Of a stretch of 64,000 nucleotides of DNA, positions 21,550-36,078 are shown piece after piece (within the stretch, counting starts at the first letter, position 1; each line of letters starts with the position of its first letter). The DNA comes from Carnobacterium jeotgali MS3 (GTDB lineage: Bacteria; Bacillota; Bacilli; Lactobacillales; Carnobacteriaceae): the NCBI RefSeq assembly GCF_000745125.1, contig NZ_JQNF01000010.1, forward strand, positions 496,001-560,000, given 5' to 3'. The notes below the pieces were generated by a model. The model worked only from the letters and a program-made list of their open reading frames with translations, ran no database searches and was not told the DNA's origin. The translations under genes were made by a program, and so were the position numbers.

Positions 21550-21578
21550 TTGACAATATTTTTTTTACTTGCTAGTAT
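21550..21578 (+). promoter_or_regulatory. Sigma-A promoter of the plus aromatic operon
   Basis: TTGACA (21550-21555), a 17-base T-rich spacer and TAGTAT (21573-21578). This is the best promoter match in the area and lies about 50 bases upstream of the leader peptide start. Confidence 0.8.
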
Positions 21579-21630
21579 TGGTCTCACAGTTGGAACACAG
21601 CTGATAATGATCAATTGAGGAGAGACCACC

Positions 21631-21732
21631 ATGAACTTACAAGCACAACTTAAAACTGCAATGGACTCACAATTGAATAATTATTATTTTAGCTTCTTTA
21701 TGAGAAAATCTATAGAGGCTAAAGCTTTTTAA
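21631..21732 (+). CDS. Leader peptide with Tyr/Phe codon run (33 aa)
   Basis: A 33-codon frame with a strong ribosome site (TTGAGGAGAG, eight bases from ATG). Its middle reads NNYYFSFFM, with five aromatic codons out of six consecutive codons, and a further Phe is the last codon. It ends just before a series of inverted repeats and an intrinsic terminator that precede the shikimate genes. This is the layout of a ribosome-stalling attenuator that senses charged tRNA-Phe and tRNA-Tyr. No T-box element is visible in this leader. The function is inferred from the layout, not from a known family. Confidence 0.8.
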   Translation: MNLQAQLKTAMDSQLNNYYFSFFMRKSIEAKAF

Positions 21733-21876
21733 GCTGCTAACAACAGTTGCCCTATAGATTTTGAAAGAAATCGAAGGGGCAACGAACTAATCTGATTTTA
21801 TAGATACTATTAGTGAACTTACCTAACGCTACATTCGATAATCTTTCAAAAGACTATCGGGTGTGGCGTTTTTTCG
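21705..21876 (+). promoter_or_regulatory. Attenuator: alternative hairpins and terminator
   Basis: Segments: AAAATCTATAG (21705-21715, inside the leader frame after the Phe codons) pairs with CTATAGATTTT (21752-21762). GTTGCCC (21746-21752) pairs instead with GGGCAAC (21777-21783), competing with it. TATAGAT recurs at 21799-21805 as another partner. The terminator has arms AACGCTACA and TGTGGCGTT with an inner TCGATA/TATCGG pairing (21825-21870), followed by T6. Ribosome position would choose among these. The exact switching order is inferred. Confidence 0.7.
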
Positions 21877-21907
21877 TTTTTCAATAATTTTAGTGGAGGA
21901 AAAAGAG

Positions 21908-22444
21908 ATGATCATTCATACGCTAGGACCAAGCAGCACGGATAGTTATGCAGTCGCCGAATCTTTGCTCCAGTCAAAAGACGATGGTATTGTAGCCTAT
22001 CCATCTTTTGACAATCTACTACACAACATTCAGCAACTAAGTGAACAATACGTATTGTTCCCTGTAGCTTTTAAAAGCGCCCGAAAAGAGTATGGGTGGA
22101 AAGAATTTAATTATGATTATTGGGATAAAGTTGAGTTGGTAGATGTCTTTCAACGAAGAACCAAGCCGATGGTTTTAGTCAAAAATAACTATTATTCTGA
22201 AAACCGAGCAATGATTCATCCAGCAACCACTATTTTCTTGAAAAAATATTTAATCCAAAAAAACGAAGACACGGTCATTGAATTTTCAGACAGTAAATTC
22301 AAAGCTTGGTCAGGCTTTTGTAAGAAAAATCTGAAATACACGATTATTAGTGAGGATGTGTTTGAAAAAGAAAAAAATCCAGGTTATACGATTGAAGAAC
22401 GATATGAGCCAGTAATGGTGTGGTGTTTGTACAAAATAAACTAA
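21908..22444 (+). CDS. Prephenate dehydratase-like protein, BacA (prephenate decarboxylase) type
   Basis: 178 residues from the ATG at 21908 (GTGGAGG upstream). It begins IIHTLGPSSTDSYAVAESL, as prephenate dehydratases and BacA do, and shares with BacA the order of later segments: a FRRTKPM-like strand, IHPATTIFLKKYL, and a final VMVWCLYKI. It has no ACT domain and lacks the Thr-Arg-Phe motif needed for prephenate dehydration. BacA decarboxylates prephenate without aromatising it, in the bacilysin pathway. First gene after the attenuator, with DAHP synthase next. Whether it makes phenylpyruvate or something else is open. Confidence 0.65.
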   Translation: MIIHTLGPSSTDSYAVAESLLQSKDDGIVAYPSFDNLLHNIQQLSEQYVLFPVAFKSARKEYGWKEFNYDYWDKVELVDVFQRRTKPMVLVKNNYYSENRAMIHPATTIFLKKYLIQKNEDTVIEFSDSKFKAWSGFCKKNLKYTIISEDVFEKEKNPGYTIEERYEPVMVWCLYKIN

Positions 22445-22465
22445 ACAATGCAGAGGAGAATAATT

Positions 22466-23506
22466 ATGATAATCGTTTTAAAACAAGGAATTAAAGCCAG
22501 TGAGGTTAAAGAATTAGCTACTAAATTAGAAACACAAGGAGTAGCTGTGAGCCATTTCACCGATATCAAGCGCGATTTCCTAGGTTTGATTGGTGATACT
22601 AGTGGGATCGATACTCACCAATTGCGTGTTTTTCCAGAAGTTGAGCAAGTTATTCGAGTAGAAGACCCTTACAAAAGAGCAAACAGAAAATTTCATCCTG
22701 AGAATTCTATCATCAAAATTGGTGACGAAACAATTGGCGGCACTAAATTGGGAATCATCGCGGGGCCGTGTTCTGTAGAAAGTGAAGAACAAATTGTGAC
22801 GATTGCAAAACAACTGAAACAAGCTGGCGCAAACTTCTTACGTGGAGGAGCATTCAAACCAAGAACTTCTCCATACAGTTTCCAAGGACTTGAATTAGAG
22901 GGATTAAAAATGCTTCAAGTTGCTAAAGCAGAAACAGGAATGCCTATTGTGACTGAATTGATGTCAACAAAATGGGTCGATCAATTTGTTGATTCCGTAG
23001 ATATCATTCAAATTGGTGCACGCAATATGCAAAACTTTGATTTACTTAAAGAAGTTGGACGAACGAATACTCCAGTCCTTTTAAAACGTGGCTTATCTGC
23101 AACCTATAAAGAATGGTTGATGTCCGCTGAGTACATTATGGCCGGAGGAAATGAAAATGTTATTTTATGCGAACGCGGTATTCGGACATTTGAAACAGAA
23201 ACCCGCAATACACTAGATATCCAAGCGGTTCCAGTCATCAAAGAACTCTCACATTTACCAATCATTATTGATCCAAGTCATGCTGGTGGAATGTCTTACT
23301 TGGTTGAAGCAGGTGCTAAATCAGGTATCGTTGCTGGAGCAGATGGCTTAATGATTGAAGTTCACAATGACCCTGCTAATGCTTGGAGTGATGGCGAGCA
23401 ATGTTTGACACCAGATGAATTTGCTAGATTGATGGAGAAAGCTCGTAAGCTAGCGGATTTCGAAGGTCGTTCGATTAACGAAGCTGCTACTATTCTAACA
23501 AGATAA
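22466..23506 (+). CDS. aroF: 3-deoxy-7-phosphoheptulonate (DAHP) synthase, type I-beta
   Basis: 346 residues from the ATG at 22466, with AGAGGAG upstream. Residues 1-70 form a ferredoxin-like regulatory domain and about 85-340 the TIM barrel, with GIIAGPCSVESEEQI, LRGGAFKPRTSPYSFQG and IIDPSHAGG. The N-terminal domain in Thermotoga-type enzymes binds Phe/Tyr for feedback inhibition. It condenses phosphoenolpyruvate and erythrose 4-phosphate, the entry step of the shikimate pathway, and is placed right behind the aromatic attenuator. Confidence 0.93.
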   Translation: MIIVLKQGIKASEVKELATKLETQGVAVSHFTDIKRDFLGLIGDTSGIDTHQLRVFPEVEQVIRVEDPYKRANRKFHPENSIIKIGDETIGGTKLGIIAGPCSVESEEQIVTIAKQLKQAGANFLRGGAFKPRTSPYSFQGLELEGLKMLQVAKAETGMPIVTELMSTKWVDQFVDSVDIIQIGARNMQNFDLLKEVGRTNTPVLLKRGLSATYKEWLMSAEYIMAGGNENVILCERGIRTFETETRNTLDIQAVPVIKELSHLPIIIDPSHAGGMSYLVEAGAKSGIVAGADGLMIEVHNDPANAWSDGEQCLTPDEFARLMEKARKLADFEGRSINEAATILTR

Positions 23507-23525
23507 ACTGAGGAGGATAAAATCC

Positions 23526-24611
23526 ATGCCTGTCTTAACCGTTAAATTTCCATCACAAGAAGTGCGTTATGAATTAAAGATTGAAAAAGGATTGCTTAAT
23601 CATGTCAGTCATGAAGTCAAAAATGTCTTTACTGGAGCTAAAATTGCCATTGTCACCGATGAAACCGTCTATGCTCTTTACGCTAAGTCGATTATAAAAG
23701 ATTTGGAAGCAGCGGATTATAAAGTACAATGCATCGTTTTGCCTCCTGGAGAACAGACTAAGACATTCGACTCGCTGCCTCATATTTACAGTGCATTAGC
23801 GGATTTTGGCTTAACACGGAGCGATTTAATCATTGCTCTAGGTGGTGGCGTGATAGGGGATATCACTGGTTTTGCCGCTTCTTCTTACTTGAGAGGTATC
23901 TCTTTTGTCCAAATCCCTACCACCTTACTCGCGCAAGTGGATAGTAGCGTTGGCGGAAAAGTGGGTGTCGATTTACCTGAGGGAAAAAACTTAGTCGGTG
24001 CTTTTTATCACCCCCTACTCGTCTTGATTGATCCATTGGTTCTAGAGACTTTGACGGATTCTGCTTTTGCTGATGGAATGGCAGAAGTGATCAAATACGG
24101 CTGTATAAAAGATCTTAATTTATTTCATCGTCTAACGGAACTATCTTCTCGAAAAGAAGTCATGCAACACATCGATTGGATCATCGAAACCTGTTGCACA
24201 ATCAAACAAGTGATTGTGCAGACAGATGAAAAAGATTTGGGCGAACGAATGATTTTGAACTTTGGACATACGTTGGGTCACGCCATTGAAGCCTATTACC
24301 AGTATGAAAAATATACCCATGGTCAAGGTGTAGCCATTGGCATGGTTGCTATCTCAAGAATCGCAGAATCCAAGCAAATGACTACTGATGGGACTACTGA
24401 TCAATTGATTACTCTTTTACAACAACATCGTTTACCTATTGCACTAGAGGATCTTGAAGATTACCCTAAATTATTGCCTTATATCAAAAAAGACAAAAAA
24501 AATAGTGGAGGCAGTTTGTCAGTGATTGTTTTAGTTGACGTCGGACGCGCTACCTTGCATCAAACGACTCTATCCTTTTTCGATTCTTTAGACACTGGAG
24601 GAACAGCATGA
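23526..24611 (+). CDS. aroB: 3-dehydroquinate synthase
   Basis: 361 residues. NAD-binding GGGVIGDITGFAAS, the RGISFVQIPTTLLAQVDSSVGGKVG block, and the metal-binding NFGHTLGHAIEA are all present. It turns DAHP into 3-dehydroquinate using NAD+ and a divalent metal. GAGGAGG sets the start 19 bases after aroF; the end overlaps aroA by four bases. Confidence 0.96.
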   Translation: MPVLTVKFPSQEVRYELKIEKGLLNHVSHEVKNVFTGAKIAIVTDETVYALYAKSIIKDLEAADYKVQCIVLPPGEQTKTFDSLPHIYSALADFGLTRSDLIIALGGGVIGDITGFAASSYLRGISFVQIPTTLLAQVDSSVGGKVGVDLPEGKNLVGAFYHPLLVLIDPLVLETLTDSAFADGMAEVIKYGCIKDLNLFHRLTELSSRKEVMQHIDWIIETCCTIKQVIVQTDEKDLGERMILNFGHTLGHAIEAYYQYEKYTHGQGVAIGMVAISRIAESKQMTTDGTTDQLITLLQQHRLPIALEDLEDYPKLLPYIKKDKKNSGGSLSVIVLVDVGRATLHQTTLSFFDSLDTGGTA

Positions 24612-25861
24612 CTAATCTAACCCTTACTCCTAATGCGTTAAATGGAACTGTTACTGTCCCGCCATCTAAAAGTATGGCGCATCGTGCAGTGATTTGCGCC
24701 AGTTTAGCAGCAGGTCGCAGTACGATCAAGAATATTCAACTATCAGATGATATCCTCGCAACTATCGAAGGTATGCGTTCGTTTGGAGCGATTATTTTTT
24801 ATGATGATCAGACATTGACAATCGATGGTATCCGTAATGGAACTGCTAAGGAAAGCCGCACAATCAATTGCAATGAGTCCGGGTCTACCTTGCGTTTTCT
24901 AATCCCTTTAGCGACATTGTTTACAGGAGAAACGCACTTTATCGGTCAAGGACATTTAGGCAAACGCCCACTTGAACCTTATCAAGAATTATTCGACGCT
25001 CAGTCACTCCATTATCATCAAGCCACAACTGAAAACCTACAGTTGAGTGTCGCAGGTTCTTTGACACCAGGTATCTATGAAATGCGTGGCGATATCAGTT
25101 CCCAGTTTATCACCGGTATGTTACTAACTTTGCCTTTACTTGCCGGAGACTCTGTCTTACAAATTACGACTCATTTAGAATCGAAAGGCTACATTGATTT
25201 GACCCTTTCTGTCTTACAATCCTTTGGTATTCTAATTGAACAAGAGGAGGATGGACAAGTATTTCGAATCAAAGGACAACAAGCTTATAGCCCCCGCGAT
25301 TACACAGTCGAAGGCGATTACTCGCAAGCAGCCTTCTGGTTGAGTGCAAATGCACTAGGGAATAAGCTTTTGGTAAGCGGTCTAGATTCAGATTCTCTAC
25401 AAGGTGATCAAGCTATCGTCTCTATTTTAGATACATTGAGTGATGGTTCCAATGATAGCGAACGCGTCATAGATGGAGCTCAAGTTCCCGATATTATTCC
25501 AGTGGTAGCTTTAGTTGCTGCATTAAGCAAAGGAAAAACAAAAATTATCAATCTGGAACGTCTACGGATTAAAGAAAGCGATCGTTTAGTGGCCACACAA
25601 AAAGAATTGACTGCTTTAGGAGCACAGATTGAGATTGTAGAAGATTCGCTTTTAATCGAAGGAGTCTCTAGACTATCCGGCGGCCAACAAGTTTGGAGCC
25701 ACAAAGATCATCGCATGGCTATGATGTTGGCTATCGCTTCAACGGTGAGTGAAGAACCAATACACATCAAAGACACAGATTGTGTCAAAAAGTCTTATCC
25801 CAACTTTTGGGAAACATTCCAACAACTAGGAGGAAAAGTAAATGAGTGGAATATGGGGTAA
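24608..25861 (+). CDS. aroA: 3-phosphoshikimate 1-carboxyvinyltransferase (EPSP synthase)
   Basis: 417 residues, two-domain inside-out barrel. VPPSKSMAHRAVICASLAA binds shikimate 3-phosphate; NESGSTLRFLIPLA takes the place of the usual GNAGT loop; LRIKESDRLVAT and HKDHRMAMM are the phosphoenolpyruvate-binding regions. It adds an enolpyruvyl group to shikimate 3-phosphate and is the target of glyphosate. Coupled to aroB (ATGA) and overlapping aroC by 20 bases. Confidence 0.95.
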   Translation: MTNLTLTPNALNGTVTVPPSKSMAHRAVICASLAAGRSTIKNIQLSDDILATIEGMRSFGAIIFYDDQTLTIDGIRNGTAKESRTINCNESGSTLRFLIPLATLFTGETHFIGQGHLGKRPLEPYQELFDAQSLHYHQATTENLQLSVAGSLTPGIYEMRGDISSQFITGMLLTLPLLAGDSVLQITTHLESKGYIDLTLSVLQSFGILIEQEEDGQVFRIKGQQAYSPRDYTVEGDYSQAAFWLSANALGNKLLVSGLDSDSLQGDQAIVSILDTLSDGSNDSERVIDGAQVPDIIPVVALVAALSKGKTKIINLERLRIKESDRLVATQKELTALGAQIEIVEDSLLIEGVSRLSGGQQVWSHKDHRMAMMLAIASTVSEEPIHIKDTDCVKKSYPNFWETFQQLGGKVNEWNMG

Positions 25862-26939
25862 AAATTTACAACTCTCACTATTTGGAGAGTCACATGGTGT
25901 GGCGATTGGCGTTACGATCAATGGTCTACCTCCAGGATTGGAACTCGATATGGAACGAGTAACATTTGAAATGGCCCGCAGAGCGCCAGGAAAAAATGAA
26001 TTGACGACACCAAGAAAAGAAAAAGATCATCCAGAGATTTTAAGCGGCTTTTTAGATGGGAAAACAACCGGAGCACCTCTTACAGCAATCATTTGGAACA
26101 CAAATACACGCTCAAAAGACTACAGTGTGTTGAAAGATGTTATGCGTCCAGGACAAGCTGATTACCCCGGACGCGTGCGTTACAATGGCCATAATGACCA
26201 TCGCGGCAGCGGCCACTTCTCCGGAAGAATAACTGCTCCGCTAGTGTTTACAGGTGCTATTTGTCAGCAATGGCTGAAACAAAAAGGTGTAACAGTAGGC
26301 TCTCATATTCAGTCGATTGGAACAATCGAAGACGAAACTTTTGAGGATCAGGAAACAGTCACGTTAGAGCAAATCGAACAGTTCAAAGAAGAACAGCTTC
26401 CTTTGTTTAATACTGAAAAAAAGGCAGAAATGACCGACTTGATTTTGGAAGCAAAAGAAGATGGCGACTCTGTTGGTGGTGTCGTTGAAACCTTTGTCTT
26501 AGGATTAGATGCCGGGTATGGAAATCCATTTTTTGACTCAGTTGAATCTCAACTGGCTCACCTCGTATTTGCCGTTCCGGCCATTAAAGGTATTGAATTC
26601 GGAACAGGATTCGACATTACCAAAATGCGCGGTTCGCAAGCAAACGATGAATATTACTACAATGAACAAGGGCGCATTAAAACACGCTCCAACAATAATG
26701 GTGGAATCATTGGCGGGATTACTTATGGCATGCCAATCGTTTTTAGAGCTGCTGTTAAACCACCTGCTTCAATTAAAAAGAAGCAACAGACGATCAATAT
26801 CCAAGAAGGTATTGAGACTGAATTAGAAGTCGAAGGACGTCACGATCCTTGTATTGTTCCACGAGTTCTGCCGGTACTAGAGGCCGTTACCGCTATCGGT
26901 TTAATGGATCTGATGCTTGGAGGACAATCGAATGAATGA
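25842..26939 (+). CDS. aroC: Chorismate synthase
   Basis: 365 residues, the normal length. The N-terminal LFGESHGVAIGVTINGLPPG and the later RYNGHNDHRGSGHFSGR and RSNNNGGIIGGI are chorismate synthase signatures that bind reduced FMN and substrate. It eliminates phosphate from EPSP to form chorismate. Overlaps aroA upstream and the chorismate mutase start downstream by eight bases. Confidence 0.96.
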   Translation: MSGIWGKNLQLSLFGESHGVAIGVTINGLPPGLELDMERVTFEMARRAPGKNELTTPRKEKDHPEILSGFLDGKTTGAPLTAIIWNTNTRSKDYSVLKDVMRPGQADYPGRVRYNGHNDHRGSGHFSGRITAPLVFTGAICQQWLKQKGVTVGSHIQSIGTIEDETFEDQETVTLEQIEQFKEEQLPLFNTEKKAEMTDLILEAKEDGDSVGGVVETFVLGLDAGYGNPFFDSVESQLAHLVFAVPAIKGIEFGTGFDITKMRGSQANDEYYYNEQGRIKTRSNNNGGIIGGITYGMPIVFRAAVKPPASIKKKQQTINIQEGIETELEVEGRHDPCIVPRVLPVLEAVTAIGLMDLMLGGQSNE

Positions 26940-27210
26940 ATTGGAACACTACCGCAAAGAGATTGATGAAATTGATCAAGAGTTGACACGTCTATTTGAA
27001 TTGCGTTTGAATACGGTTCTAAAAGTTGGCGATTATAAAAAACAACATGGTTTACCGGTATTGGATGCCACTCGCGAAAAAGCTGTTATTGAGCGAAATA
27101 TCGGCCGCTTAACAGATCCACAGTTCGAACCACAAGTTACCCAATTCTTCCAATCGATGATGGACATTACGAAAGAAACTCAAACGACTCTCTTAAAATC
27201 AGAATCGTGA
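26932..27210 (+). CDS. Chorismate mutase, AroQ class
   Basis: 92 residues from the ATG at 26932, preceded by TTGGAGGAC inside aroC. All-helical AroQ fold: YRKEIDEIDQELTRLFELRL, VGDYKKQHGLPVLDATREKAV and a C-terminal helix ending near the stop. It converts chorismate to prephenate. It feeds the BacA-like protein of this operon and TyrA of the divergent one. Last gene of the operon. Confidence 0.92.
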   Translation: MNELEHYRKEIDEIDQELTRLFELRLNTVLKVGDYKKQHGLPVLDATREKAVIERNIGRLTDPQFEPQVTQFFQSMMDITKETQTTLLKSES

Positions 27211-35885: not shown

Positions 35886-35938
35886 TAAAAAAGGCACACC
35901 TATAGGACAGTAGTACTGTCCCACAGGTGTGCCTTTTT
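35886..35938 (-). terminator. Riboswitch expression-platform terminator
   Basis: On the minus strand, AAAAAGGCACACCT and AGGTGTGCCTTTTTT form a long stem closed by inner GGGACAGTA/TACTGTCC. The 5' arm overlaps the last aptamer helix, so ligand binding would prevent termination. Confidence 0.9.
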
Positions 35939-36010
35939 GGCACTACTCTGCTATCACACATGTGTGATCCGGCCGCATGAACCTCTAAGAGTTCACCGCC
36001 TGTTCAGATT
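35905..36010 (-). ncRNA. NiCo (czcD) riboswitch
   Basis: Read on the minus strand, the leader has the conserved order of this class: CTGAACAGGC near 36007, a hairpin GGTGAAC...GTTCATGC, GCGGCCGG near 35970, a second hairpin (ATCACACATGTGTGAT), AGCAG, a third hairpin, and CCTGTGGGACAGT near 35915-35928. These blocks line up with my memory of the crystallised NiCo RNA. It binds Ni(II)/Co(II), and the class has also been reported to respond to Fe(II). It sits between the promoter at 36079 and the P1B-4 ATPase and is linked to a terminator, so it should switch transcription on. Confidence 0.9.
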
Positions 36011-36078
36011 TAATTGGCTCTCATTCTTAAATTAGCTATAAGAAAGAAGAGCAAGTTAAATTAGATTTATATACACTT

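Follow-up and report, generated by a model that had tools for sequence, protein, structure and literature searches.

How is the shikimate operon of this Carnobacterium jeotgali genome controlled? The usual explanation for the control of aromatic operons in Firmicutes is a T-box or TRAP. In the 64,000-nucleotide stretch of DNA analysed here, referred to as the window, a search with the Rfam T-box model (RF00230) returned no match; the same genome had 17 T-box matches, 14 of them above the cut-off, and none lay at the leader of the operon. These results bear out an earlier note on the sequence, which had seen no T-box upstream. The leader matched no Rfam riboswitch or other relevant Rfam family, and the sole Rfam match above cut-off in the window was a NiCo riboswitch on the reverse strand (35914–36017, 61.8 bits). 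Judging from sequence comparison and modelling, the leader very probably acts as a ribosome-mediated transcription attenuator, with charged tRNA-Tyr and tRNA-Phe as its signals.

The operon and its leader

The predicted controlled operon, on the forward strand, comprised genes for DAHP synthase, aroB, aroA, aroC and chorismate mutase (22448–27210; Pfam assignments). Divergent to it were aroE, aroK and tyrA (Pfam) and, among these, a type II dehydroquinase judged by eye from its translation. The operon was headed by a gene on the same strand (21908–22444) whose 178-aa product was kept in this position across the clade (10 sequences). This protein had no Pfam match at E ≤ 0.001, and its single NCBIfam match reached 12.1 of 703 bits, far under the cut-off. 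Three PDB matches (E 0.38–0.55) were all to unrelated proteins. The predicted structure was of low confidence (pLDDT 63.9), and its top fold match, to prephenate dehydratase, was weak (TM 0.38). The gene content read by the earlier note held for DAHP synthase and the shikimate genes; for the first gene, which it called prephenate, this weak fold match was the nearest counterpart. In the relative G011 (C2:255480–259884), the first gene and the DAHP synthase gene are set apart by ∼2.7 kb together with a first-gene fragment (aa 108–143), which is likely an insertion.

To examine the leader, we used an alignment of nine clade members: the window, five relatives of its family, Alkalibacterium pelagium, Alkalibacterium sp. 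AK22 and Marinilactibacillus kalidii. A predicted promoter, TTGACA-17 nt-TAGTAT with a TG before the −10 element, occupied 21550–21578 (forward strand), and the elements TTGAC and TGCTA[AG]TAT were present in all nine members. Promoter-like sites were no commoner than in shuffled sequence (four, versus a shuffle mean of 3.6); the promoter call therefore rests on this conservation. Downstream on the same strand, a Shine-Dalgarno sequence, GAGGAG (21617–21622; present in eight of nine, M. kalidii differing), preceded a 33-codon ORF encoding MNLQAQLKTAMDSQLNNYYFSFFMRKSIEAKAF (21631–21732, with the stop codon TAA at 21730–21732). The putative control codons Y18 Y19 F20 S21 F22 F23 (21682–21699, forward strand) were kept as Y-Y-F-S-F-[F/Y] in 9/9. 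Within this run, one Tyr and one Phe codon varied synonymously and one Phe was replaced by Tyr, and the flanking codons varied as well (N17 to R or S, M24 to R). The Ser codon was AGC in all nine members. Conservation extended beyond the aromatic residues, as QLN.YYFSF. In A. pelagium, a 1-nt deletion right after YYFSFF shifted the frame while the RNA sequence ATCTATGGAGGCTAGAG of strand B, described below, was retained, which indicates codon-level constraint on the control codons and RNA-level constraint on the later part.

Within the window's family, a DAHP synthase match was found in 10 of 18 genomes; G009, of the same genus, had none. A search of the order yielded YYFSF[FY] in six further leaders (L145–L149 and L151), of which L146, L149 and L151 had peptides identical to those of M. 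kalidii, A. pelagium and AK22, respectively. Overall, these features point to a leader with a short ORF, predicted to be translated, that has a Shine-Dalgarno sequence and a cluster of codons for the amino acids under regulation.

Alternative pairings of the leader RNA

The leader RNA could be divided into six strands that form two exclusive states: an off state with helices A:B, C:D and E:F, and an on state with B:C and D:E. All strands are given on the forward strand. Strand A (TTTAGCTTC, 21688–21696), which includes the AGC codon, paired with 21715–21723 of strand B through nine standard pairs in 9/9 members. Strand B (AAATCTATAGAGGCTAAAG, 21706–21724) could pair with A or C; strand C (GTTGCCCTATAGATTT, 21746–21761) with B through 21749–21761 or with D through 21746–21753; and strand D (21760–21783) with C through 21776–21783 or with E through 21760–21778. 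Strand E (21822–21850) is both the antiterminator partner of D and the 5′ arm of a predicted intrinsic terminator, E:F (21825–21874), with a stem at 21825–21870 and a U-tract at 21869–21874. The RNA from 21590 to 21876 folded with −77.7 kcal/mol (z −6.4; 0/200 shuffles as good), and the best fold of the whole leader contained A:B, C:D and E:F. A simple terminator scan reported no sites, we think because the U-tract lies partly within the stem.

The pairings differed in how they varied among the clade members. A:B paired in 9/9 but was near-invariant and displayed no covariation within the clade (84 of 120 permutations as good). For B:C, 99.1% of cells were paired, a value that four of 500 shuffles reached; one of its 13 pairs changed on both sides (AU to GC/GU), by which measure 452 of 500 shuffles did as well. 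In a partner-swap test over five lineages, among which the two Alkalibacterium are close relatives, the permutations as good, native included, numbered 2/120 for B:C, 2/120 for C:D, 1/120 for D:E and 4/120 for E:F. These data suggest an antiterminator (B:C and D:E) and a terminator (C:D and E:F) that are mutually exclusive and covary.

The arrangement would operate as follows. When Tyr and Phe are ample, the ribosome would reach the stop codon at 21730 and cover B, such that C:D and then E:F would form and transcription would end before the shikimate operon. When either amino acid is short, the ribosome would halt on Y18–F23 and leave B free; B:C would form, followed by D:E, which would block the terminator and permit transcription of the operon. 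If the leader were not translated, A:B would form and termination would be the default.

Equilibrium modelling of the window RNA reproduced this scheme over a limited range of RNA ends, and in three distant members the effect was weaker or absent. With a ribosome stalled at Y18, F20, F22 or F23, the probabilities of B:C and D:E were 0.94–1.00 for RNA ends at 21850–21853. With the ribosome at the stop codon, C:D had a probability of 0.99–1.00 and D:E of at most 0.01. The on state was confined to a narrow span: for RNA ends at 21840–21845 or 21862, C:D was at 0.81–1.00 even under a stall. In a codon scan of the window, capture of the E arm was ∼0.6 for N17–F23 (0.60 at F23) and ∼0.2 from M24 (0.23 at M24), with 0.32 in the absence of a ribosome. 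Capture was 0.55–0.58 at codons 7–11, so early stalls would also read as on. Across the clade, the on–off difference ranged from 0.16 to 0.37 in six members and was lower in AK22 (0.07), M. kalidii (0.10) and A. pelagium (−0.06); the shuffles as good were 5/100 for the window and 1, 2, 9, 10, 18, 29, 34 and 79 per 100 for the other members. In the two Alkalibacterium and M. kalidii, the off state was barely visible in the equilibrium model. Every state favoured the terminator, by a margin of ∼10 to 28 kcal/mol, so that the choice between on and off would have to be kinetic, a matter of timing. In the window, stall and stop gave nearly equal energy gaps to the terminator; in the two Alkalibacterium and M. 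kalidii, a ribosome at the stop gave a larger gap than a stalled one.

The earlier note had described a promoter, a Shine-Dalgarno sequence, a 33-codon frame with NNYYFSFFM, competing hairpins and a terminator at 21550–21907, and each of these observations was confirmed. Its interpretation, an attenuator operated by ribosome stalling, was supported within the reach of sequence analysis: the aromatic codons were kept in 9/9 aligned relatives, the alternative helices covaried and no T-box was present. The contrary pattern, in which relatives keep the terminator and lose the codons, did not occur among these nine. Sequence and comparison support the ORF with its control codons, the terminator, alternative helices that covary and, as described below, homology across the Lactobacillales; from these we infer stalling of the ribosome at the control codons and the readthrough that would follow from it.

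Related leaders in the Lactobacillales and the Clostridia

DAHP synthase matches at E ≤ 1e-60 were present in 69 of 118 Lactobacillales genomes. At 27 DAHP synthase loci outside the window's genus, a YYFS-type leader was recognized by pattern in 20 and three more leaders were recognized by eye, at L150 (WYYSF; the leader reads QLNTWYYSFLDNISMEAG), L152 (clostridial type) and L154 (QLNTYFTFWFFNS). No leader was seen at L159, L160, L161 and L164, the last of which retains the B element. In 11 of 20 loci, the Rfam family RF02863 (sRNA_2410) was placed just 3′ of the leader, and the consensus of this family starts within the Phe codon of F-S-Y-F-R-stop. The RF02863 model did not match the window element at E ≤ 10, at E ≤ 0.05 (as L118) or at E ≤ 0.001. 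It matched 108 of 198 genomes of the order, 48 of them above the cut-off, and none of 14 control genomes; the matches under the cut-off may include Trp-type elements.

A rival reading is the one under which Rfam files RF02863, namely that the leader RNA is a trans-acting sRNA and the ORF is incidental. According to the accessible text of PMC5593968, which like Rfam treats sRNA_2410 as an sRNA, it was detected by RNA-seq and Northern blot in E. faecium, where it is listed at 195 nt with two transcripts. Against this reading, a leader ORF of the type [FY]FS[YF][FL] stood at the model start in 28 of 30 RF02863 loci, versus none of 600 random places and none of 30 reverse strands. The choice of leader favours aromatic ORFs, hence the same test was applied at the random places; the loci opened were mostly the best-scoring ones. 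The two loci lacking the pattern were L186 (YYFGYF) and L192. Moreover, the following gene, judged by eye, looked like that of a TrpX-like binding protein in 15 loci and like aroE in 14, with one other; one example of each was confirmed (PF04392 for TrpX-like, PF08501 for aroE). Finally, a terminated leader would itself yield such a short RNA. A purely trans-acting RNA is very unlikely on these grounds. The leader RNA could act in trans as well as in cis.

Twenty further stretches carried such a leader (17 by filter and three streptococcus-like ones by eye). In all 20, the first 60 residues of the protein that follows looked TrpX-like by eye. Tyr/Phe leaders thus precede both shikimate operons and TrpX-like transporters. 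The sets of loci overlap: L204 is L188, and several RF02863 loci, among them L191, L193 and L194, are the leaders of DAHP synthase loci counted elsewhere (L166, L125 and L127). The window's own genome has one sRNA_2410-type copy, MNSHLVSQTQLNNYYFSYFRNCL (L199), and the protein 3′ of it scored 350.9 bits to the NCBIfam TrpX model, short of the 390 that the model requires. In Streptococcus suis, according to the consulted portion of PMC9382623, TrpX is reported to be controlled by a T-box, so the gene has other controls elsewhere.

The relationship of the window element to these leaders was evaluated in two ways. The consensus of strand B, ATCTATNNNGGCTARAG, common to the RF02863 leaders, occurred once in the window (21708–21724) and in 0/100 shuffles; this pattern was picked after both forms had been seen. 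In addition, a covariance model, R1, built from seven clade members and applied to 26 Tyr/Phe leaders from the remainder of the order, matched 23 of them at E ≤ 0.004, with a best wrong-place match at E 1.3; it missed L155, L205 (E 1.3) and L206 (E 3.3). By R1, the window element appears to be homologous to the sRNA_2410 leaders. In the commoner sRNA_2410 form, the leader ends in ...QLNNYYFSYFR-stop and a hairpin separates A from B. The window form has neither that stop codon nor the hairpin, and its ORF continues through B; from this absence, it was probably derived from the commoner form. The expectation in the earlier note that such an attenuator would be uncommon in Lactobacillales was overturned, homologous leaders being present in many genomes of the order.

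Leaders of another type were found farther afield. Of 80 DAHP synthase loci from named genomes, 79 were usable, and in 46 of these, mostly from Clostridia, an aromatic leader ORF lay within 450 nt before the DAHP synthase gene, compared with two when the reverse strand was scanned and 54 among 1580 shuffles. L038–L040 were scored as none because their leader lies farther than 450 nt, and the leaders of L059, L061 and L105 were added by eye. A terminator-like hairpin followed the leader in 45 of 47 cases (the 46 and L124), versus 25 of 470 mononucleotide shuffles. Leaders of this kind, an aromatic ORF with a terminator, preceded DAHP synthase in many Clostridia and Negativicutes (L044–L116, e.g. 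L071, L082 and L109; L124). Separately, L106 and L117 had a T-box-like motif upstream of DAHP synthase and no aromatic leader call.

Many clostridial leaders shared FSAGY, and in the Clostridium type TTT AGC GCT GG was nearly fixed at the nucleotide level. In 13 aligned leaders of the clostridial type, AGCGCTGG had a predicted pairing partner farther upstream in the leader, with no covariation; a downstream pairing partner for the AGC GCT region was sought and not found. Near the leader end of the aligned members, an ATGAG box faced CTCAT in the terminator arm. Twelve of the 13 had the box, six in frame 0, one in frame 1 (after the stop) and five in frame 2. R1 matched none of seven loci (the clostridial-type leaders L071, L082, L109, L124 and L152, and L041 and L042, which had no leader call), and a common origin of the window and clostridial leaders was accordingly not supported. 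The clostridial leaders seem to be simpler attenuators with a build of their own. Their type also occurs in the window's own family, in one member, G004. L044 (Sedimentibacter sp. SX930) and L152 (in G069, placed in Lactobacillales) have an identical leader sequence, and one of these labels may be wrong. A loose codon pattern with one mismatch, tried on 295 genomes, was discarded: it had hits in 284, with control counts equal or higher in many.

These leaders bear on a second alternative, in which a nascent arrest peptide stalls the ribosome in response to a small molecule. Both the conservation of QLN.YYFSF beyond the aromatic residues and the recurrence of FSAGY would fit such a peptide. The invariant serine, however, is encoded by AGC in 9/9, within the strand A that pairs with B. 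In the clostridial leaders, the predicted upstream pairing of AGCGCTGG and the occurrence of the ATGAG box in all three frames suggest constraints at the RNA level; the conservation of QLN is not accounted for in this way. The case for an arrest peptide from FSAGY itself was rejected, AGC GCT being nearly fixed as nucleotides and predicted to pair upstream. Overall, an arrest peptide is highly improbable.

The Trp form and comparison with known systems

A second Rfam family, RF04312 (the trpB motif), had a weak match in the window's genome (42.6 bits, versus a cut-off of 59; L219, C5:702142–702266). There, a leader with Trp codons, MMLMTLSNGQLNSSWQSQDR, precedes another TrpX-like gene. RF04312 matched 87 of 148 genomes of the order, 35 above the cut-off, and only three of 149 genomes drawn from the phylum, the window's own included. 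We opened 31 Lactobacillales loci, comprising that of the own genome and the best place in each of 30 others; the phylum loci L220 and L221 were left out, and L221 had no Trp leader. In 31/31, a Shine-Dalgarno sequence and a Trp-containing leader ORF were present, the ORF stopping 12–24 nt before the model start. A leader with any Trp occurred at 62 of 620 random places and on three of 31 reverse strands. A W..W leader was found in 27 of 31 loci, versus three of 620 random places and 0/31 reverse strands.

For 28 Tyr/Phe and Trp members together, 0/5000 permutations paired A:B or B:C as well as the native partners; the native pairing is inflated, B having been selected for its best match to the A of the same member. 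Member by member, A:B was matched by at most 7/100 shuffles in 27 of 28. B:C was weak, with 16–50/100 shuffles as good in 8 of 10 Trp members and 24–26 in three of the 18 others. Of 11 members modelled, nine had B paired with A after the ribosome had left (≥0.55), and five had B paired with C while it was stalled (≥0.65). R1 matched none of four Trp-type loci: the layout is similar, and homology to the Tyr/Phe family was not supported.

The least probable alternative, that the sensor is not leader translation and that an aromatic metabolite is recognized directly by a riboswitch or by a protein-bound RNA, draws on the similar layout of the trpB motif (SRC-39-1), which the available part of PMC11109978 lists as a strong riboswitch candidate, its authors not ruling out a classic attenuator, and on the Tyr/Phe leaders before TrpX-like genes, where codon identity is not everywhere matched to gene name; against it stand the Tyr/Phe codons before shikimate operons and Trp codons in 31/31 trpB-motif loci, the location of strand A inside the ORF and the lack of a riboswitch or T-box match at the leader. 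For the trpB motif itself, which other groups such as Fusobacteria also carry, we favour an attenuator over a riboswitch, limited to the Lactobacillales. On balance, the Lactobacillales may share an ancient, order-wide set of attenuators in which one scaffold was retuned from Tyr/Phe to Trp, the codons and strand A changing together.

If the attenuator reading is correct, a leader peptide appears to control the shikimate operon in a T-box-rich genome, with relatives common in the order. It would also re-label an Rfam sRNA followed in an antibiotic-response study, and would offer a testable answer for an orphan riboswitch candidate, the trpB motif, at least in Lactobacillales. The Tyr/Phe and Trp pair could show how an attenuator changes its amino-acid specificity. 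The suggestion of the earlier note that the arrangement was perhaps undescribed is correct in part: the RNA is in Rfam as sRNA_2410 and a Phe uORF has been proposed in Acholeplasma, and our literature search, which had most subscription papers outside its range, found no reading of sRNA_2410 or of a shikimate leader as a leader-peptide attenuator. From the consulted section of PMC7724050, ∼30% of predicted 5′UTR-derived sRNAs in enterococcal RNA maps are riboswitches or T-boxes.

The switch between A:B/C:D/E:F and B:C/D:E follows the same six-strand logic as the his leader. The his, trp and pheA attenuators of enterobacteria also have control codons in a leader ORF, together with alternative hairpins and an intrinsic terminator; they belong to a different phylum, and no Rfam model of them matches the window. 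Closest to the window is sRNA_2410, which has the same leader-peptide ending and B element and is matched by R1; it differs in that its stop comes after strand A, with a hairpin between A and B, whereas the window ORF runs through B. The trpB motif has a similar layout and the A:B pairing, with Trp codons instead of Tyr/Phe and a weakly supported B:C. In Acholeplasma, uORFC-13-1 likewise places a Phe-codon uORF and a terminator before a DAHP synthase gene, aroF, and the excerpted account in PMC8632094 gives 24 representatives, from Acholeplasma and environmental sequences only. Other leader-peptide attenuators of Firmicutes, so far as the accessible portions of the reports describe, likewise replace T-boxes and concern histidine genes (PMC2965389, PMC9413887) and lysQ of Lactococcus lactis, a member of the Lactobacillales (PMC4833913), the groups represented across these reports including the B. 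cereus group, Peptostreptococcaceae and Erysipelotrichales.
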